Assembly (NCBI GenBank): GCA_950075905.1
Contig: CATMVR010000002.1
Span: 1 to 35,583 of the forward strand
Direction: 5' to 3'
Source of the DNA: an uncultured Persicitalea sp.
Lineage (GTDB): Bacteria; Bacteroidota; Bacteroidia; Cytophagales; Spirosomataceae
DNA: 35,583 nt
The notes below the pieces were generated by a model. That model worked only from the letters and a program-made list of their open reading frames with translations, did no database searches and was not told the origin of the DNA. Shown one piece after another: positions 24,948 to 35,080 of the stretch; position 1 is the first letter of the stretch, and each line of letters starts with the position of its first letter. The translations under genes and the position numbers were made by a program.

Positions 24948-25628
24948 TCAGAATCTGGCGGGGGCCAACGAGAGCAATCCAAAACCAAAAGCCTTGGCAG
25001 GTCCAATGCCACTCTGCAGGGCGGCTTTGAAAAGTATGGGATCAGTCACGCGTAGCATTCCATCAAAGCGGACGCCGTAAAGCGGGATTGCTTGTCGCGA
25101 TTCGACCGTGCTCCCCTTGGCTGCTTCGTACCAGAAATCATCACTACCGGCCCATAGTATCTCGAAACCATGTTGCTGTCCTTTCCGGCTCAGCCATGCC
25201 TGGGCAGCGGTCGGAGCATCGGCTTCATCGTCCTGAGTCAGGTAATCGGCGAGGGCCACACGCCGGCCCTGTTTCCTGCCCTCACGCTTTTCCTTGCGTG
25301 TCGGATTGGCCACAAGACGGAACTGGAATGTCTGGCCTGACACAAAATCAGGGTCGGCTGCTGTATACTTGACGGAAGTAGTGTAATGTTCAGGCAAGCG
25401 ACTCCAGTCCGGCTCAGTGTGTGACTGCACCAAAATGGTCGGCTGTGCATCGCGGTAAGACAGTGGCTCCAGCCGAAACAGCACACCATGCTCGACCCGA
25501 TAGTCCCTGCCGGGCACCGTCTCGAAAGCATGGGCGAGTGTACGGTGCAGTTCATAGGGTGCAGCCGCATCGCGCCGTGCCTCGAACGATCGGGGGTTAA
25601 GAGTGATTTTAGACAAAAACATGTTCAA
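24948..25628 (-). CDS. cas6e: Type I-E crRNA endonuclease Cas6e
   Basis: MFLSKITLNPRS...YELHRTLAHAF; C-terminal G-rich loop SGIGPAKAFGFGLLSLAP; position in the operon. Confidence 0.93.
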   Translation of the reverse strand: MNMFLSKITLNPRSFEARRDAAAPYELHRTLAHAFETVPGRDYRVEHGVLFRLEPLSYRDAQPTILVQSHTEPDWSRLPEHYTTSVKYTAADPDFVSGQTFQFRLVANPTRKEKREGRKQGRRVALADYLTQDDEADAPTAAQAWLSRKGQQHGFEILWAGSDDFWYEAAKGSTVESRQAIPLYGVRFDGMLRVTDPILFKAALQSGIGPAKAFGFGLLSLAPARF

Positions 25629-26440
25629 TCGGGGACTAAGGTTGGACGGATATAGGTGACCACTTCGCGGGGGGCAAACCGGCGGGGGGCAAACGAAAGC
25701 GGCACATCGCTACGCTGTGCTCGGCTTGCCGGGATGTATTCGCCTGGTGCGTCGGGAGACTGGGCTTTGCCAGTCCCGGCATCCAGCACCAGCCGCACCG
25801 TCTGTGCCGACAGCTCTGCTGCCCCGCTCCAAATCTGCTCCCGATCACCAATGGATTCGGGCATCAACGCTGGGTCAAGGGCCGTTAGCAGCGCTGTTGT
25901 CAGGGGGGCACGCATGACGGAAGGCCCTGTGCCCTCACCAAGCTCGAACCGTACGGGCCAGGTAGGCACGAAGGATTTGCGACCAAGAAACAACGGCCAA
26001 TAGGGTTTGGCTAAGGCCGCGTCCAGGGCAGACAGCAGGTCTCCATCCTCGCTCTCGAACCCCACCAGGAAGTGGGCATCGCTGAGGTAGTACCGCTCCG
26101 ATAAGACGGTGGTCTGCAAGTCGCCGGGGTTGGCGGGCTTGCCGGGCTTCAGCTTGGCACTGGCCCGCAGCACGTTTTGCGCCGTGTGGTAGTCGCGGCG
26201 CAGGACGCCCTCCCGAATGACCCGCACCCCGAAGCACATAGCGGCCAGGTCGGCAAGAGTGCGTTCCTGCCCAGCGATAACGTGCGTGGCTTCGGCCCGG
26301 TCCCAGCCCAGAGCGGCGCAAAGCAAGCCAATCACACCGCTTTTCGAGGGTTCGGCCAGCGTTTCGCGGATGCCGAACCGACTGCTCACGCCCCAGGACT
26401 GCATCGGCCCGGCCAGTCGTAAAATCAGGGTGTGGCTCAT
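25625..26440 (-). CDS. cas5e: Type I-E Cascade subunit Cas5e
   Basis: MSHTLILRLAGPMQSWGVSSRFGIRETLAEPSKSGVIGLLCAALGWDR; overlaps the cas7 stop by 4 bp. Confidence 0.95.
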   Translation of the reverse strand: MSHTLILRLAGPMQSWGVSSRFGIRETLAEPSKSGVIGLLCAALGWDRAEATHVIAGQERTLADLAAMCFGVRVIREGVLRRDYHTAQNVLRASAKLKPGKPANPGDLQTTVLSERYYLSDAHFLVGFESEDGDLLSALDAALAKPYWPLFLGRKSFVPTWPVRFELGEGTGPSVMRAPLTTALLTALDPALMPESIGDREQIWSGAAELSAQTVRLVLDAGTGKAQSPDAPGEYIPASRAQRSDVPLSFAPRRFAPREVVTYIRPTLVPD

Positions 26441-27654
26441 GCGGGTTCGGGCTTGGCGGTGAGGAAGGTTTTCAAGGTTCCCAGCAAGTCGGGAACGCTG
26501 TCGAGCGTCTCGACGCCCGCCGCTTGCAACGATTGCGCCGCTTTCCCCCCGGCATCGAGCATCACGCACGCAGCCTGGCCGTTCAGCCCGTACATCTTTT
26601 GCAGCCTACCGTAGTGCGCACTCAGCGATTCGACGGCCCGGCTGGTCAGGCTTTCGTCCTGTCCGGGTTTTACGGGATTCTCAAAGGCATTGACCAGCGA
26701 AACCGGCTGCCCCGATTCCCGCATCACCACCATCACCAGCGCGGGCAGCGAGTGGGCCGCAAAGGTGTTCTGCTTGCCCGAAGGCCGCGCCTGCACGAAC
26801 GCCTCGGCGAAGGCAAGCACTCCTTCCCTGGCGGCTTTGGCATCGCCGCCCAGGTTGCGGGTCAGTTGGCTCGTATCGACACAGGCGAAGCGGTAGAAGC
26901 ACGACGAGGAGAAGCCGATGGTGCCGATCATGCCCGCCCCGGCGTTTTCGGCAGGCTGCAGGTCATCCACCGCCGTGAAGTAGTCGAACTCCATGTTCAT
27001 GCGGTTGACCGAAATGGCGTGGCTCACCTGACAGGCCGCATCCACGTTTTCGGCGGGGTTGTCGGCCAGCATCCGGCCAAACAGGGCCACATCCACTGCC
27101 CGCACGTGCTTGGGGTAGGTTTTCTTGTACTGATCGGCCAGGGCCGCGAAGGGCTTTGCGGCTTCGGAAATAGCCTTTTCGTGATCGGCCTTTTCCTTCT
27201 TCGAGACACCCTTGGCGGGCGGATTGCTCCGCAACTCGGCCAACTGCCCGGCGGCGGCTATCGTTCCGGGCTCGGCACCGTGCAGCAGGTCGGCGGCTCG
27301 CTGTAATTCCTCCGGCCCGACGTAGAGCAGGTACCTCGTCTTGCCGTCGTCGTCAATTTTGTACAAAGCCTCGTAGAACTCCGCCGCCAGGGCCTTGGCC
27401 TGAGTCTCCGAATGACCCAGCCCGACGAGCAGTCCGGCAACCGCCTCGGGCGCTCGCTTGGTGCGGATGCCCAGGCGGTCGGTCATCTGTTCGCGGAACA
27501 CGTCGGACTGCCTGACGGAACGTTTCAGGCATTGGGAAGAGATGCGCTGCCGACGGTAGCCGCCGAAGTCGCAGTCTTTGGGCGCACCGCTGTCGTCACG
27601 GTTGAGGTTGGAGGGGGGGAAGTTCTGCAGGATGTGAAATTCGATGGTTTTCAT
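26437..27654 (-). CDS. cas7e: Type I-E Cascade subunit Cas7e (Cse4/CasC)
   Basis: MKTIEFHILQNFPPSNLNRDDSGAPKDCDFGGYRRQRISSQCLKRSVR; ADVALFGRMLADNP-type block. Confidence 0.95.
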   Translation of the reverse strand: MKTIEFHILQNFPPSNLNRDDSGAPKDCDFGGYRRQRISSQCLKRSVRQSDVFREQMTDRLGIRTKRAPEAVAGLLVGLGHSETQAKALAAEFYEALYKIDDDGKTRYLLYVGPEELQRAADLLHGAEPGTIAAAGQLAELRSNPPAKGVSKKEKADHEKAISEAAKPFAALADQYKKTYPKHVRAVDVALFGRMLADNPAENVDAACQVSHAISVNRMNMEFDYFTAVDDLQPAENAGAGMIGTIGFSSSCFYRFACVDTSQLTRNLGGDAKAAREGVLAFAEAFVQARPSGKQNTFAAHSLPALVMVVMRESGQPVSLVNAFENPVKPGQDESLTSRAVESLSAHYGRLQKMYGLNGQAACVMLDAGGKAAQSLQAAGVETLDSVPDLLGTLKTFLTAKPEPA

Positions 27655-27683: not shown

Positions 27684-28283
27684 TCAGTTGGTGGTTTCAA
27701 AAAGATCTTCGTCCTCTTGCTCGGCCCGGGCGGTCTTCCAATAGTCACGAGCCCACTGGCGTTTGGTGTGGTCGCCCTCCCAATGCAGCAGGTCCGTCAA
27801 AATCCGACCGTAGTCCACCGGGATGCGGGCTTCGGCGGCAGCTATTCGTTGAATGAAGCCCCGCAGCGGCACGGCGATGTCCTCGCGGTCGCTATCAAGC
27901 AAGGCGACGAATCGCTTATCCAGGCTATCTTGCCCCGCCCCAAGCTGGGTGCGCAGCCGTCGCAGCGACTCGCCGAACGACCGGGGTTGGTAGCTTGTGC
28001 TGTCGTCATCCTCACTAAATCCGGGTACTTTGTACCCGCCATCTGGGGTGGTGAACCGCTGGGCGTGGATGGCGTAGAGCGTCCCCACCAGGCGGTAGGC
28101 GTCGAAGGGCCAGCCGCTGGTTTCGGGCAGAAGCCCGCCCAGTATCCAGATGGAACGGGTGTCGCGCAGCGGGTCGGCGGCGGCGCGGCGGAGTTCGGCC
28201 AGTTTGGCGCGGCCCTCCGCATCGCGCTGCTTTTGCAGAAATCGCACCAGGTTGTTGATCGAGGCTTTGTCGTAAGGATTCAT
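27684..28283 (-). CDS. cse2: Type I-E Cascade subunit Cse2 (CasB)
   Basis: Start at MNPYDKASINNLVRFLQKQRDAEGRAKLAELRRA; ends overlap cse1; position between cse1 and cas7. Confidence 0.9.
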   Translation of the reverse strand: MNPYDKASINNLVRFLQKQRDAEGRAKLAELRRAAADPLRDTRSIWILGGLLPETSGWPFDAYRLVGTLYAIHAQRFTTPDGGYKVPGFSEDDDSTSYQPRSFGESLRRLRTQLGAGQDSLDKRFVALLDSDREDIAVPLRGFIQRIAAAEARIPVDYGRILTDLLHWEGDHTKRQWARDYWKTARAEQEDEDLFETTN

Positions 28284-29836
28284 ACGGGTTCGGTTTTTTT
28301 GGATTTGAGGTAAAGAGTTCCGGTGTTCAGCACCGTTTCGGCTTCGGCCAGGGCCTGCCAGGCGGAATCGCTGGGTTTGTAGTGATCCAGGACGCCATGC
28401 AGCGCGGCCTTGGCAACTTTTTTGATCATGGTCTGCCACTCTTTGCGCACGGCCCCCAGGTCGTCGGTGGGTACGGTGGCGATTCGGGCCAGAATGCGGT
28501 CGAACTGCTGCCCCAGCACGGGCCAGTAGCGGGCGTCGGTGTCGAGGGCTTGCACGAAGGCGTCGCGCTCGCCCCGCTCCACATCGCTCAGGCGAATGCC
28601 CCAGGGCTTGTTGAGCCGGGCACGGGTGGCGAAGGCGCGGGTGGCTTCGCGCAGCCGGAAGTCGCGGATTTTCCTTGCATCTTCAATTATGTCCCTTAAA
28701 GTGAGCCAGCGGCCTTCCTCGGTTATGATCTGGGGGTAAACCGTCACCCGTTCCTGCCGCCATAGTTCGACCTTGGCCTTGTCGTTGACCATGCCGAACA
28801 CATCCGCCGCAAAAGCCACCCGGCGGTCAAGGTCGAGTTCTTCAACATTGTTCGCCAGCCATTCAAAGGTCTTCGGCGCGTGACCGCCTTCGCCCTTTTT
28901 CTCAATGTTCATCATGTAAGCCGCACTGCCCTGCCAGAGCGCACGGGCCGTACTGAACCGCAAGGGGTAAAGCCCTTCGTTACCCGCCAGGTAGGCCAAG
29001 TGTGGGTCGTCGAAAAGTAGGTTCTCGACCTTGCTGCCCTGGTTGTAGCGGACGCCAGTCACCCCTTGCTCCTCGTTCAAGACCACCTGCAGGCGGCGGC
29101 TTTGAAACGTGAACAGTTCACGGATACCGCCAACGTCGCGTTTTTTGGGTAATGGCGGTTCATCCGCTTCCCAGGCAGGATGATCGCCCTCGGTGTTTCC
29201 CCAAACCCCGGAATCGGGGGCAAGGTTGAGCAGCAAGGCCCGAAACAACGAAGGTCTTTCGTCCGCCACGCCCCGCAGCCAGAAGTACGCCCCGCCCACC
29301 AGCGGTCCGTGGCATAGATTGAACGGCTTGGCCACCCCGCCGCCCAAAGCCGCCGCCTGAGTGCAAACCAGCGCACGGGCCGCTTGGGCCAGCGTCAGGG
29401 GCTGGTTTTCGGCATCAAGGTCATGACTGAACAGCGCGGCGTTATTTCCACTGGCCGCCGCGTGAAACAGGCGCGTTATGGGCGAAGGGTCTTTCGCTTC
29501 CGTGTCGGGGTGGCCGTAAAAAGGCCGCGTCGGCGACAGCAGGTCGAAGCGGTCGGTGTGTTGGGCAAAGTACGCTTCGCATCGCGCGGCGTCGAACGCC
29601 CCCTCCTGCCAGCGGTCAAACCAGTCCGATTCGTCGGTTAGTTCCGGGAATACAGAAGCGGTCAAAGCCGCCAGCAGCCGATTGAGGGCGATGGTTTCGA
29701 GCGGATTGTCGGTCGCCAGTTCCTCGATTTCGTGCGCCCTGGTCAGGGCCTCGTGTAGGCCCACGTCCGTCGGCGGGCCGCCCCCGCGCCACCGCATAGG
29801 TAGCCAGGGTTCTTGTAGTAGGTTGAAGGAATTCAT
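28280..29836 (-). CDS. cse1: Type I-E Cascade large subunit Cse1 (CasA/Cas8e)
   Basis: MNSFNLLQEPWLPMRW..., FDLLSPTRPFYGHPD, AAALGGGVAKPFNLCHGPLVGGAYFWLRG. Confidence 0.95.
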   Translation of the reverse strand: MNSFNLLQEPWLPMRWRGGGPPTDVGLHEALTRAHEIEELATDNPLETIALNRLLAALTASVFPELTDESDWFDRWQEGAFDAARCEAYFAQHTDRFDLLSPTRPFYGHPDTEAKDPSPITRLFHAAASGNNAALFSHDLDAENQPLTLAQAARALVCTQAAALGGGVAKPFNLCHGPLVGGAYFWLRGVADERPSLFRALLLNLAPDSGVWGNTEGDHPAWEADEPPLPKKRDVGGIRELFTFQSRRLQVVLNEEQGVTGVRYNQGSKVENLLFDDPHLAYLAGNEGLYPLRFSTARALWQGSAAYMMNIEKKGEGGHAPKTFEWLANNVEELDLDRRVAFAADVFGMVNDKAKVELWRQERVTVYPQIITEEGRWLTLRDIIEDARKIRDFRLREATRAFATRARLNKPWGIRLSDVERGERDAFVQALDTDARYWPVLGQQFDRILARIATVPTDDLGAVRKEWQTMIKKVAKAALHGVLDHYKPSDSAWQALAEAETVLNTGTLYLKSKKTEPV

Positions 29837-29838
29837 GA

Positions 29839-32646
29839 TTATTGTTTGGTGTAAATTAATCCTAATCTGTTATCCAGCGTGAGTTGCACATTCCCTACCG
29901 TGGCATTCCCATCAACCAGCTCCACCAGCTGAAAGCGTTTCAGCACCCGATGTTCCTCCTGCATGGCGAGCCATTCAGGGTTCTCTTCTTTCCATAGCGT
30001 GGAAACAATACCGGGATGGCTGATCCGCACGGCGGCACCGAAAAGGGTACGCAGCGTCTCGGGCTGTAGCCTCCGGTTTTTGGTCCGGCATAAAACCGTT
30101 TTATCGCCTGGCTCCACCGCCCAGCCCCCATCAGTTTCATATAGAAGCAGTACTTCGGCATTGATGCCGTCCGAACTGCGGGTCAGGGCTTTGAGGTGTT
30201 CGGGCAAATCGCCTTTCCCTTTTTCCCCGTCCTCTTCGGCCAATTCAGGTTTTTCAAACACAAACAGCTTCCGCAGTTTTCCCGGCTCCGGCACCAGCCG
30301 CTTTGCGGCATCGGCCATTTTGCTTCGGTCGGCTCTCAGCCACTCGGCCACTTTCTCAGGATATAGGGCTTGAAACTCTTCATCCAGTCCTGCAGGAACT
30401 GCAGCCAAGTCGCCATACACCGCCTCGATCAGAGCCCGGTAGCCCGGCCCGGCCCCATCGCCCAGCGGCAAGGTCCAGCCGCCCGCTTGCCGCAGCACGG
30501 CCCAGGTTTTCCAGAGCAGAGCCGTTTCGTATATTTTGCCGCCGCCCGAAATCCCGTCCACCTCGGGCAGTTTGCCCTCCTCGCTCTCCGCGCAGGCGAT
30601 GTACATCACGGGTTGGGAAAAACCAGCGGGCCGCTCGCGCTGGTGGCGGTGCAGCCGCCCGGCGCGTTGCAGCAGCAAATCGACCGGAGCCAGGTCGGTG
30701 ATGAGGGCGTCCACGTCCAGGTCGAGGCTTTGCTCGATGACCTGTGTTCCCACCAGCAGACCGGACTGCGCGGGGCGTTTGGGGCCGAAGCGGGCGCGGG
30801 CGTCTTTCTCACGCTCCTGCCGCCAGGCTTGGGGCATTCGGGCGTGGAGCAGCATCCGGTCGGCCTTGGGTAGTATTTCATCGGTGTCGAGTTTCTCAAA
30901 AACCTCCTGCGCTCGCTTGACGGTGTTGCAGACGATCATTACCGTGGCTCCCGCCGCCAGCAGTCGCCGGGCGGTGGCCACAACGGAGTCGATTCCGGCA
31001 TCACACCAGCGGAAGGCTAGTCTTTGGCCCCGTCCCGGTGCGGGGGCAAAGGGGTGGGCAGTAGTGGTGCCGTCAGCGGCATGCCACACCACCGGGTAAG
31101 GTGCCGGACGAGTACCGTCAGGCACTTCGGGGCTGCCCCAGGCAGCGAGCATCCGCTGGCGCGCTTCGGTGGGCAGCGTGGCCGACAGCACCACTACGTT
31201 GACATTCAGCGCGCGCAGCCAACGCAGCAATTGCCCAAAGACGGTATTCATGTAGGCATCGTAGGCGTGTACCTCGTCAAAAATGACCGTCTTGCCATTC
31301 AGCGCGAACAGCCGTAGGAAAAAATGCTTGGCGTAAAGGACGCCGAGGAAAAGCTGATCGACCGTCCCAACGCCGTACGGAACCAGCAGGGCCCGCTTCT
31401 TGGGCATGAACCAGCCCAGCACCCGGTCCTTGCCGGATTCTTCCCTGCCCTTCTTAGCATCATTGTCGTCTATTTCGGCGGTAGCTTCGGCGATGGTGAG
31501 CAGCGCTACGGCATCGTCGTGGAGCAAGTCGTTGCCATGTACCAGGCGTAGGGCGGCGGTATCGCCGACATGGGCTGCCACCAGACCATTCTCTACGTCA
31601 CCCGCCACAAATGTTTTCAGGCGCGGGTAGAGGCCGTCTGATGTAGATTGAGAGGGCATGGCTACGTACACCCCCCCGCCATTTCGGGCGGTGACATAGA
31701 ACCCGGCTTCGGTTTTGCCTTCGCCCGTCGGGGCTTCGGCGATAATCAGGTTGGGCTGGTCGGGATGCAGGGGCAGAGCGGCCACGATTTCCTGTAATGG
31801 GCGCGGAGGGTTGCCAAAGTGTTTTTCAAAATCCAAAGCCCGCAGACTGGCCCGCTGATTCAACCCGGCCTGACGATAGGCTGTGTACGCGCCCTCCCGG
31901 CTACTAACCAGGTAAGCCGCGAGGTCGTCCTCGGCCCGAATGTGCAGGTCGTAGCAGCTTTGCATCGATCCGAGCCAGTCGGCCAGCGTGGCCCAGCCCG
32001 CGAAGGCCAGCAGCCAGTCGGGCCAGGAATCTTTAAATGCATTGAGTGTGGGGAAGGCGTTGCTTGATGGAAGCGTAGCCCCCCATGCCATGAAAACCGC
32101 TTCGGTGAGGTCGTGCTGGGCTTGCCTCCAGGTTTCGTTACCCAGCACGGCTTCGGGGCGCGGGTCTAGGGCGACGCCCTCCCATGTTTCTTTCTGGCAA
32201 AGCTTGCCGTGATGAATGCCCACGAAAGCGGCCAGGGCATCCAGCAAGGTTTTGCCTGTAAACCCCTTGGCGCCCAGCCAACGCTGCGCGATGGCGATAG
32301 ACGCGTGACCGTGGTGCAGTCGGTTATGGTTTTCGTGAAAAAACAGCCCGGCCGCTTCCTGCCGCGCCTTAGCGGGTTCGTTCATTTCCTGAAAGCCCGG
32401 AATCCCCTTCCCCAGATCATGCAATCCAATCCAAATGCTGAGAAACCGACCGGCTTCGGCTTCGCTCATACCGAGAGCAGCGGCCATTTTCTGTTTCAGT
32501 GAATCTGGAAGGAACTCGTCCCACAGCAGTTGCGCGGCGCTGCCCACGTCGATGAGGTGTGCCCAGAGCGGGTGTGTCCAGTCGTCGGCTAAGCCTTCGA
32601 CTTTTTCGCGGTTGGTTTTGGCCCAAAAGAGCCGCCAGTTTTCCAT
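29839..32646 (-). CDS. cas3: Type I-E helicase-nuclease Cas3
   Basis: N-terminal HD domain (HPLWAHLIDVG, GLHDLGKGIPGFQ, HHGHASIA); helicase motifs EAPTGEGKTEA, FDEVHAYDAYM, LSATLP, GTQVIEQSLDLDVD, QRAGRLHRH. Confidence 0.97.
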   Translation of the reverse strand: MENWRLFWAKTNREKVEGLADDWTHPLWAHLIDVGSAAQLLWDEFLPDSLKQKMAAALGMSEAEAGRFLSIWIGLHDLGKGIPGFQEMNEPAKARQEAAGLFFHENHNRLHHGHASIAIAQRWLGAKGFTGKTLLDALAAFVGIHHGKLCQKETWEGVALDPRPEAVLGNETWRQAQHDLTEAVFMAWGATLPSSNAFPTLNAFKDSWPDWLLAFAGWATLADWLGSMQSCYDLHIRAEDDLAAYLVSSREGAYTAYRQAGLNQRASLRALDFEKHFGNPPRPLQEIVAALPLHPDQPNLIIAEAPTGEGKTEAGFYVTARNGGGVYVAMPSQSTSDGLYPRLKTFVAGDVENGLVAAHVGDTAALRLVHGNDLLHDDAVALLTIAEATAEIDDNDAKKGREESGKDRVLGWFMPKKRALLVPYGVGTVDQLFLGVLYAKHFFLRLFALNGKTVIFDEVHAYDAYMNTVFGQLLRWLRALNVNVVVLSATLPTEARQRMLAAWGSPEVPDGTRPAPYPVVWHAADGTTTAHPFAPAPGRGQRLAFRWCDAGIDSVVATARRLLAAGATVMIVCNTVKRAQEVFEKLDTDEILPKADRMLLHARMPQAWRQEREKDARARFGPKRPAQSGLLVGTQVIEQSLDLDVDALITDLAPVDLLLQRAGRLHRHQRERPAGFSQPVMYIACAESEEGKLPEVDGISGGGKIYETALLWKTWAVLRQAGGWTLPLGDGAGPGYRALIEAVYGDLAAVPAGLDEEFQALYPEKVAEWLRADRSKMADAAKRLVPEPGKLRKLFVFEKPELAEEDGEKGKGDLPEHLKALTRSSDGINAEVLLLYETDGGWAVEPGDKTVLCRTKNRRLQPETLRTLFGAAVRISHPGIVSTLWKEENPEWLAMQEEHRVLKRFQLVELVDGNATVGNVQLTLDNRLGLIYTKQ

Positions 32647-32696
32647 TGTTTTTTGATAAGGCGATGGGGATAAAGGTATAACAGCCTACCTCCTAC

Positions 32697-32722
32697 GCCG
32701 GACATTTCATGTCCGGAATGAG
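32697..32722 (-). promoter_or_regulatory. Palindromic candidate operator upstream of cas3
   Basis: Minus strand CTCATTCCGGACATGAAATGTCCGGC; 8-bp inverted arms CCGGACAT/ATGTCCGG with 3-nt centre, about 50 bp upstream of the cas3 ATG. Confidence 0.7.
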
Positions 32723-32738
32723 TATGACTACGTAACGT

Positions 32739-33737
32739 TCATTTGCAATAACGTCGGACCAGTTCCTCCGCCTCCTGCCCCAGCCGTTCGCGTAAAGCGC
32801 CGGGTTCGAGTACCGTGATGCCCACGCCCCAGCCCTGGCAGAAGGAACGCATTTCCTCGAATCCCTCCAGCTCGTAGGATACCACCAGCCGGCCGTCAGG
32901 CCGTTCCTCCTCCACAATCTGCGTGGGGTGGTACTTGCGCTCATGGAAATGGGTGGCCTTGTCAGGCTCCACCAGTAGCCTCAGCTCGAAGCACTGGTCG
33001 GAGGTGATCGAGCCCAGGGAGGCCCGGAAATACGTTTCCGGGTTGAAGCTCTCGTCTACGGTGAAAAAGGCACCCTCCACGGCATCGTCGCAGGGAGCCA
33101 CGCGACTGATCCGGGTAAGGGCAAAAGTCAGCAGCTTTTCACGCTTATGGCAGTAGGCAACCAGCATCCAGGCGCGGTTTCGCTTGGCGAAGATGTAGGG
33201 GTCGATTTTCCTGTCATTTGAGATCCGGCCCTCTCTTGCGGTGAAGTAGTCAATCCTGATCGAGCGATGCTCGTCCATAGCCGTTTCCAACCGGCTGAAT
33301 ATATCCATTTGGATGCGATCCGGATCATTGTCGTCAAAGTGCCACTCCTGGGTGGGTTCCTCTATGTCAAAAAGGTAGGTGACGGGACGGGCCCGCTCGA
33401 GTAGCTTGACAAAGGCACGGCTTAGAGCTGCGGCGTGCGGTGTGCCAACCAATACTGACCGGCTAGCCTTGGCGGCAATAGCAAGGGCGCGCAGTTCAGC
33501 GGAATCGAAGCGTAAGTCGGGAATGGTAACCTGCTGGCTTTCCGGAGCCAGAGAAAACACCTTGCGCCTCTCCTCCTGCCGCTGCAGGATCGGCAATCCC
33601 TGTTCCTTCAACTGACTGATGAAACGGCGGGCCTGCCGTTCCCCGACTTTCGTCAGCTTCTGGATGTCATCCAGTGTCAGTGCACGACCTGTGTCCAGGA
33701 CCTGACGTAACAACTCTTCGGGTCTTATTTTTTTCAT
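32739..33737 (-). CDS. HTH/WYL-domain transcriptional regulator
   Basis: N-terminal HTH (LDDIQKLTKVGERQARRFISQLKEQGLPILQRQ), WYL core (IRIDYFTAREG...KIDPYIFAKRNRAWMLVAYCHKREKLLTFALTRI), C-terminal WCX-like extension. ATG at 33737 preferred over the ORF start at 33842. Confidence 0.88.
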   Translation of the reverse strand: MKKIRPEELLRQVLDTGRALTLDDIQKLTKVGERQARRFISQLKEQGLPILQRQEERRKVFSLAPESQQVTIPDLRFDSAELRALAIAAKASRSVLVGTPHAAALSRAFVKLLERARPVTYLFDIEEPTQEWHFDDNDPDRIQMDIFSRLETAMDEHRSIRIDYFTAREGRISNDRKIDPYIFAKRNRAWMLVAYCHKREKLLTFALTRISRVAPCDDAVEGAFFTVDESFNPETYFRASLGSITSDQCFELRLLVEPDKATHFHERKYHPTQIVEEERPDGRLVVSYELEGFEEMRSFCQGWGVGITVLEPGALRERLGQEAEELVRRYCK

Positions 33738-33788
33738 TGAGGTAGGGGTGACAGTTAGTTGTGGATTGCAAGGTTGAAGGAGCATTGC

Positions 33789-33814
33789 CTCATGCCGGAC
33801 ATCGAATGTCCGGC
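33789..33814 (+). promoter_or_regulatory. Palindromic candidate operator in the WYL-cas1 divergent intergenic region
   Basis: CTCATGCCGGACATCGAATGTCCGGC; 9-bp arms GCCGGACAT/ATGTCCGGC; 50 bp before the cas1 ATG and 57 bp before the WYL ATG. 23/26 identical to the cas3 site. Confidence 0.75.
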
Positions 33815-33863
33815 TTGCCGCACATGTGGCTTTAAGTTGCAACGTAAATCAACAAATAAATCT

Positions 33864-34799
33864 ATGAAACACAAACATGCATTGCGGGATTTGCCCAAAG
33901 TTCGTGATTCTCTTTCATTCCTTTACGTGGAGTACGGGCACGTAGAGCAATCCAGGCTGGGGGTTGAGTTCGTCAACAGGCTGGGGCAGGTTCCTATTCC
34001 GGCGGCAAGCTTGTCCTCATTGTTGCTAGGGCCGGGCACCACGATCACCCATGGAGCGATCAGAACTCTGGCCGAAGCCGGATGCTCTTTGGTTTGGGTC
34101 GGGGAGGGTGGGGTCAGATGCTATGCCCAGGGTACCGGGGAGACAAACAAGGCCTATCGTCTCATGCGGCAGGCCGAACTTTCGGCAACGCCCGAGCTTC
34201 GACTGCAGGTGGTGGAGCGGATGTACCGGGCCAGGTTTCCGGAGCCACTGCCCCAGGGTCTCAAACTCGAACAAATTCGGGGCAGGGAGGGGATACGAGT
34301 GCGTGAGGCCTATGCCCAGGCCGCACGCAAATTCGGTGTGAGTTGGAACGGCAGGAATTACGACCGCAACAACTGGAACGATACGGATCCGGTAAACCGG
34401 GCTCTGTCATCAGCGAACGCCTGCCTGCACGGGCTGGTACATGCTGCGCTACTTTCGTCGGGTTATTCTCCGGCACTCGGCTTCGTGCACCAGGGCAAGC
34501 AATTGTCCTTTGTGTATGACATAGCCGATCTCTACAAAATGCAGCTGACAGTTCCTGTCGCTTTTTCGGTAGTGGCGGAAGGCCCGGATAAACTGGAAAC
34601 GAAGGTCCGCAAGCGGTGCCGTGATGCCTTCAACAACCTGAAACTGTTGCAGCGAATCGTCACCGACGTGGATCGCCTACTTTCCTTGGATAAGGAACCG
34701 GAGAATCCCGATGGTTTTGACCCTGACGAAGATCCAGCCCTGCCAACCCCCTGGTGGAGCAAATTGCCAGACAACCCAGCCAAATCCACCGAGCCATGA
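33864..34799 (+). CDS. cas1e: Type I-E integrase Cas1
   Basis: MKHKHALRDLPKVRDSLSFLYVEYGHVEQ, LLLGPGTTITHGAIRTLAEAGCSLVWVGEGGVRCYAQG, SSANACLHGLVHAALLSSGYSPALGFVHQGKQLSFVYDIADLYK. Confidence 0.97.
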   Translation: MKHKHALRDLPKVRDSLSFLYVEYGHVEQSRLGVEFVNRLGQVPIPAASLSSLLLGPGTTITHGAIRTLAEAGCSLVWVGEGGVRCYAQGTGETNKAYRLMRQAELSATPELRLQVVERMYRARFPEPLPQGLKLEQIRGREGIRVREAYAQAARKFGVSWNGRNYDRNNWNDTDPVNRALSSANACLHGLVHAALLSSGYSPALGFVHQGKQLSFVYDIADLYKMQLTVPVAFSVVAEGPDKLETKVRKRCRDAFNNLKLLQRIVTDVDRLLSLDKEPENPDGFDPDEDPALPTPWWSKLPDNPAKSTEP

Positions 34800-35080
34800 C
34801 CATACTGATCCTGGAAAGGGTCTCCCCCACGCTGCGGGGCGACCTCGGCCGCTGGCTGGTTGAAATACAAGCGGGGGTGTTCGTCGGTCGCGTAAACGAG
34901 CTTGTGCGCGAAGCACTGTGGGAACGGGCCACAGGCCGCGCCGATGATGGCACAGTATTGATGGTTTGGCGCACAAACAGCGAGCAAGGCTTTGATCTAC
35001 GGGCCTGGCAACCTAAAAGCTATATTCCCATCAATCTGGAAGGCATCTGGCTGACCCGCCGACCGGCTTCTAACACTTAG
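34796..35080 (+). CDS. cas2e: Type I-E Cas2
   Basis: MTILILERVSPTLRGDLGRWLVEIQAGVFVGRVNELVREALWERA; 4-bp ATGA overlap with cas1. Confidence 0.96.
   Translation: MTILILERVSPTLRGDLGRWLVEIQAGVFVGRVNELVREALWERATGRADDGTVLMVWRTNSEQGFDLRAWQPKSYIPINLEGIWLTRRPASNT

Follow-up and report, generated by a model that had tools for sequence, protein, structure and literature searches.

A DriD-like WYL regulator may act through paired, fixed-position palindromes at both cas promoters of a Spirosomaceae type I-E CRISPR-Cas locus

The WYL protein considered here has its nearest full-length relative in DriD, a WYL activator of Caulobacter crescentus (PMC12340889; PDB 8tp8, 9pfq). DriD recognizes the consensus ATACGAC-N7-GTCGTAT at a constant distance from the -10 element of promoters with a poor -35 element, and it activates a divergent operon, not itself (PMC12340889). 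Within defence loci, BrxR, encoded in BREX islands, is a repressor with two boxes in the island and a box placed between the -10 element and the ATG (PMC9122601), and CapW, from CBASS loci, is a repressor whose palindromes overlap the -10 element (PMC9122588). A WYL regulator of a CRISPR locus, Sll7009, has been reported to repress the type I-D locus of Synechocystis, according to its citation in PMC9122601, and a CARF and WYL survey (PMC4012209) already records that WYL genes are associated with cas loci. In the searched literature, no operator, promoter position or control direction was found for the CRISPR-associated WYL group, and no case of a DriD-like WYL regulator whose site keeps a fixed position at adaptation and interference promoters alike was met in the open-access papers searched.

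The window, which is the whole stretch of 35,583 nucleotides analysed here, comes from a metagenome-assembled genome (MAG) of 5.38 Mb in 819 contigs, 82% complete. It contains a complete type I-E CRISPR-Cas system (PADLOC profiles and ORF list) with arrays flanking both sides, as judged from repeat-derived ORFs on either flank in the ORF list. The interference genes are ordered cas3e-cas8e-cse2-cas7e-cas5e-cas6e on the minus strand and the adaptation genes cas1e-cas2e on the plus strand, and a WYL/WCX gene separates the two modules (Table 1).

Table 1. Features of the type I-E locus and its candidate regulatory elements (window coordinates).
Feature	Position	Strand	Basis or remark
WYL-domain regulator gene	32739..33737	minus	332 aa; Pfam WYL 1.1e-15, WCX 2.6e-12; proposed binder of both sites
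WYL protein parts			wHTH with recognition helix about 33-45, three-helix linker, WYL, WCX; structure model and DriD profile alignment
cas3e	29839..32646	minus	PADLOC Cas3e 1.1e-170; heads interference operon downstream of site 1
cas8e (cse1)	28280..29836	minus	PADLOC
cse2 (cas11e) frame	27684..28439	minus	position between cas8e and cas7e
cas7e	26437..27654	minus	PADLOC
cas5e frame	25625-26569 (ORF)	minus	position
cas6e	24948..25628	minus	PADLOC
cas1e	33864..34799	plus	PADLOC Cas1e 5.2e-117; heads adaptation operon downstream of site 2
cas2e	34796..35080	plus	PADLOC Cas2e 1.5e-32 for ORF 34754-35080; start codon inferred
Palindromic site 1	32697..32722	minus	upstream of cas3; core GGACATGAAATGTCC at 32714-32700
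Palindromic site 2	33789..33814	plus	between WYL and cas1; core GGACATCGAATGTCC at 33797-33811
cas3 -7 element TACCTTTA	32671..32678	minus	starts 21 nt after site-1 core
cas1 -7-like element TAAGTTGC	33833..33840	plus	starts 21 nt after site-2 core

A preliminary description of this DNA had placed near-identical 26-bp palindromic sites upstream of both cas modules. A sequence check confirmed both 26-mers where Table 1 lists them, identical at 23 of 26 positions, with the identity taking in CTCAT outside the palindrome. The two sites are the sole matches of a joint pattern allowing up to three mismatches (shuffle mean 0.00). That no third copy had been seen in the window is borne out at genome scale: apart from sites 1 and 2, the exact 16-base palindrome pattern CCGGACAT-N3-ATGTCCGG has no further copy in the 5.38-Mb MAG. 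The distances first given needed partial correction: the 50 nt from site 1 to the cas3 ATG (32646) stands, site 2 lies 49 nt from the cas1 ATG (33864), and the WYL ATG (33737) is 51 nt from the edge of the site-2 26-mer, the earlier figure of 57 nt being correct only when the count starts at the CCGG palindrome. The -7-like element pointed out before cas3 is real; the equivalent cas1 box, which resembles a TAnnTTGY variant (PMC9723704) and has the identical 21-nt spacing, had been missed.

Relatives were sought in 221 genomes, the window's own genome belonging to the same GTDB family as Fibrella. Six other Spirosomaceae genomes encode WYL homologues with 56-64% identity, and five of the six keep the gene order, with cas1 divergent from WYL and cas3 following WYL. 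The palindrome, which the preliminary description had suggested looking for in related WYL-I-E loci, is present at both places in all five: GGACA-N5/6-TGTCC gives the top match in each of the two intergenic regions of these relatives and of the window, and the sites in the six WYL-I-E loci match 9 or 10 of the 10 arm bases. The window, L005, L006 and L073 have a five-base spacer (GGAC-N7-GTCC) and L074-L076 one of six bases (N8); in genomes with both sites, the spacer length is equal at both. In the sixth relative, L076 (G226), the WYL gene, whose product is 57% identical, precedes a type I-B operon (Cas6b, Cas8b, Cas7b, Cas5b), with a palindrome between WYL and cas6 and none in the region upstream of WYL. 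This arrangement suggests that the regulator-operator unit may have been exchanged between CRISPR types. This WYL gene adjoins every I-E cas1 found in Spirosomaceae, so that no negative control is possible within the family; five I-E loci from outside it that have no detectable relative of this WYL protein (L078, L080, L082-L084) served as a substitute, and TGTCC-N21-TAnnTT was found near the cas genes of none of the five.

Other features of the family's loci were recorded alongside these. Fibrisoma and Fibrella (L005:9087-9470 and L006:9229-9591) encode, between cas3 and cas8e, a small HTH protein that is similar to the N-terminal part of WYL proteins and absent from the window and L073-L075. 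The cas1 promoter of L075 has an additional half-site, TTTGTCCACT, that overlaps the -7 box and is possibly a second or negative site. The WYL-I-E locus L073 (G235:C2) is found close to one end of a contig of 203,683 bp, the main contig of the same genome being of multi-megabase size, and may be carried on a plasmid.

The position of the palindromes within the promoters is invariant. TAnnTT starts exactly 21 nt after the proximal TGTCC in 13/13 cas1, cas3 and cas6 promoters, with at least three of four -7 positions matched in each and 49 of 52 overall; none of 200,000 shuffles reached this total (shuffle maximum 29), and no other offset was found in more than 3 of the 13 promoters. The distance from site to ATG ranges from 49 to 71 nt across promoters while the 21-nt spacing is constant, which indicates that the spacing is held as its surroundings change. 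On the WYL side, a -7 box at the 21-nt spacing was looked for and none was found. A scan for sigma-70 type promoters gave no matches, as expected of Bacteroidota promoters. The -7 element was calibrated on 800 kb from two of these genomes. In this sample TAnnTTTG is enriched upstream of genes (108, versus 16 to 40 for most one-letter variants and 79 for TAnnTTTT), and TTG is preferred 18 to 22 nt upstream of it. By inspection, 0/13 cas promoters have a TTG at the -33 spacing (N18-22), an element that is often missing in promoters of these genomes generally. In numbering borrowed from Flavobacterium, where the TAnnTTTG box occupies -12 to -5 (PMC9723704), the 15-base core extends from -48 to -34 with its centre at -41 (-41 or -41.5 across loci), and the proximal half-site covers the -33 region, over which the palindrome at cas3 had already been placed in the preliminary description. 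The palindrome without the -7 requirement has several matches per genome; the site followed by 21 nt and a -7 box occurs 11 times in seven whole genomes (about 50 Mb), and all 11 occurrences are at WYL-linked CRISPR loci.

The WYL protein itself points in the direction of DriD. A seven-protein WYL profile aligns with DriD over its full length (hmmsearch, positions 10-319, E about 1e-8), whereas its matches to PafBC, BrxR and CapW are confined to the WYL/WCX part. In an AlphaFold model that is weak (pLDDT 69, pTM 0.37), helices at 79-90, 102-115 and 138-155 lie between the wHTH and the WYL domain, and Foldseek with this weak model gave E values near 1e-13 for DriD and PafBC and near 1e-7 for BrxR and CapW. 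The Arg pair that serves ssDNA sensing in SiwR (R204/R207) and related WYL proteins, with residues matched by alignment, is not conserved: six of the seven proteins have A/S/G-x-x-R at the aligned motif, and both Arg are missing in L005. The signal of DriD therefore cannot be assumed here, and ssDNA sensing of the DriD kind is not claimed.

The locus resembles DriD in having wHTH, three-helix bundle, WYL and WCX in this order in one chain, a GAC-N7-GTC core (in the window, L005, L006 and L073), a fixed spacing to the -10/-7 box over a poor -35/-33 element, and a site in an intergenic region that serves a divergent operon. It differs in that its targets are the adjacent cas operons, the centre of its palindromes falls some 7 bp upstream of the -33 box whereas the DriD site is centred on -35, some loci have an N8 spacer, and the Arg pair is not conserved. 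With BrxR and CapW it shares a WYL regulator gene within a defence locus and inverted-repeat sites; unlike their operators, which lie over or after the -10 element, the core here lies upstream of it. Sll7009, as cited in PMC9122601, is likewise a WYL protein on a type I CRISPR locus and is reported there as a repressor, while SiwR of Mycobacterium smegmatis has a palindrome between -35 and -10 and unrelated target genes (PMC10693628).

The mechanism that we propose is one of joint induction. A WYL homodimer would read GGAC-N7(8)-GTCC through two winged HTH domains, and the operator at cas1 and cas3 would replace the -33 box, 21 nt from the -7 element. The bound protein would recruit RNA polymerase, as DriD does, and a signal sensed by the WYL/WCX part, for which we infer an inducing ligand, would induce the adaptation genes (cas1-cas2) jointly with those of interference (cas3-Cascade). 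A separate promoter probably serves the WYL gene. Binding of the WYL protein to both palindromes is very highly probable from the sequence comparisons. Activation rather than repression is quite probable, and it is fairly probable that the protein is a DriD-like activator co-inducing the two modules.

The strongest competitor keeps the same protein at the same sites and reverses the sign of control. The preliminary description had proposed that the WYL protein autoregulates and co-represses both modules. Autoregulation is unsupported, there being no -7 box at the 21-nt spacing on the WYL side and no palindrome upstream of WYL in L076, and co-repression has become doubtful in view of sites near -41 at an invariant 21 nt and a nearest full-length relative that is an activator. 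As a BrxR/CapW-type repressor, the WYL protein would be relieved by a ligand during infection, derepressing both cas operons. Such a role has precedents in the defence-linked BrxR and CapW, which repress via inverted repeats (PMC9122601, PMC9122588), and in the reported repression of a type I-D locus by Sll7009 (cited in PMC9122601). Moreover, a dimer bound over the -33 region, which the site overlaps, could keep sigma out, so that position alone is not proof of activation. However, an exact 21-nt spacing at about -41 is a constraint that repression does not need, CapW and BrxR sites lie at or after the -10 element, and the full-length homology is to DriD, not to BrxR or CapW. About -41 is the position of class II activators. 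Full-length DriD homology together with DriD-like site traits, unlike the BrxR and CapW positions, means that the architecture favours activation, and we consider control by derepression unlikely.

Beyond Spirosomaceae, a plasmid search found four WYL proteins with 32-35% identity in Rhodothermota, and at all four loci the same palindrome flanks the WYL gene on both sides. Salinibacter ruber pSR66 has a type I-B system with three palindromes, placed before WYL, the cas6 operon and cas4-cas1-cas2. On S. ruber pSR116 the neighbourhood of the WYL gene is free of cas genes, a PD-(D/E)XK nuclease and a UvrD helicase lie beside the gene, and the downstream core is identical to that of site 2 in the window. 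Two Rhodothermus marinus plasmids have one divergent site and one just past the WYL stop codon. With the better direction taken, 9/9 Rhodothermota sites have a TA at a distance from the core of 20 or 21 nt and TAnnTT is present at 5/9, a weaker result than that in Spirosomaceae. The I-E loci L079 and L081, with WYL proteins 37-38% identical, have TGTCC-N21-TAGSTT before cas1, and a second TGTCCG 21 bp upstream makes a direct repeat and no palindrome. The palindrome is missing in 27/29 more distant WYL loci (2-4 kb scanned), and no WYL relatives were found on viral contigs.

Several of these loci have neighbours of their own interest. The pSR116 WYL gene bracketed by palindromes (L136:13889-15014) is possibly part of an uncharacterised defence locus, and in pSR66 the stretch from the full WYL gene to cas6 includes a WCX-only WYL fragment (L137:15421-15726). 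On the R. marinus plasmids, the genes next to and divergent from WYL (L138:12801-13754 and L139:12836-13786) encode proteins of about 317 aa that have no Pfam match and have the same kind of site in front. Between WYL and cas3, L079 and L081 encode a PD-(D/E)XK-like protein with a Cys cluster, Cas4-like by eye (L079:13555-14496, L081:6088-7008).

In a tree, the motif-bearing WYL proteins separate from the more distant ones. Nearly all of them have the recognition helix [RK][QH]xRR (KQASR and KQVQR in three); this helix is absent from the compared WYL proteins without the motif, most of which have a STIEK-like one. Residue 37 is suggestive of a rule linking helix and operator base, with R37 accompanying TGTCCG in 12/14 half-sites and Q37 accompanying TGTCCA in 8/8 (Fisher p 1.4e-4), figures to be read with the two genomes that have Q37 being closely related and with the rule failing in part at the S. 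ruber I-B locus. The motif tracks the WYL clade through two NCBI phyla, two CRISPR types and one non-CRISPR locus, and this following of the gene across loci gives strong, if indirect, support to a common WYL-bound site. The earlier proposal of one WYL-bound element common to both modules is supported by the conserved pairs, the co-occurrence with the clade and the recognition helix, and the two palindromes in the window may accordingly be read as a single regulatory element.

The same distribution bears on whether a host regulator other than the WYL protein binds the palindromes, which we judge very improbable: the motif accompanies the WYL gene in different genera, NCBI phyla and operon settings, among them the non-CRISPR plasmid locus, and confinement of the full site with its -7 box to CRISPR loci in seven genomes speaks against a global regulator. 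Transcription terminators or RNA hairpins would suit the place of site 1 between the WYL stop codon and cas3, and stems of 8-9 bp with 3-nt loops can be drawn. However, no T-run follows the palindromes, site 2 lies in a divergent intergenic region, the palindrome is upstream of the predicted TSS, and the arms drift in relatives (GGACATTTAATGTCT, GGACACCAAAAGTCC) while the position relative to the -7 box is constant. This reading, extremely improbable, was rejected after terminator calling gave none at either site. A dispersed REP or MITE-like repeat or a chance match, which the extension of the 23/26 identity to CTCAT might recall, is of negligible probability and was likewise rejected, with two copies only in 5.38 Mb, none in shuffles, and the pair conserved in six genomes.

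Activation through the paired palindromes may be one case of something wider. In a reading that we favour by a little, a DriD-like WYL activator and its palindromes would form a portable switch, conserved from Bacteroidota to Rhodothermota in I-E, I-B and non-CRISPR plasmid loci and acting as an on-switch for acquisition and interference in response to a signal other than ssDNA.

Little is known of how type I CRISPR systems outside enterobacteria are switched on, and for the most part WYL genes next to cas genes have been listed as accessories. This locus supplies an operator, two promoters and a regulator, in a geometry that predicts the direction of control. The motif and the 20-21-nt rule can be used for finding more loci under the putative switch, including non-CRISPR ones. 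If activation is true, the WYL family would include activators dedicated to immunity alongside its repressors, and if the portable-switch reading is true, CRISPR systems with a WYL regulator would have a dedicated on-switch.
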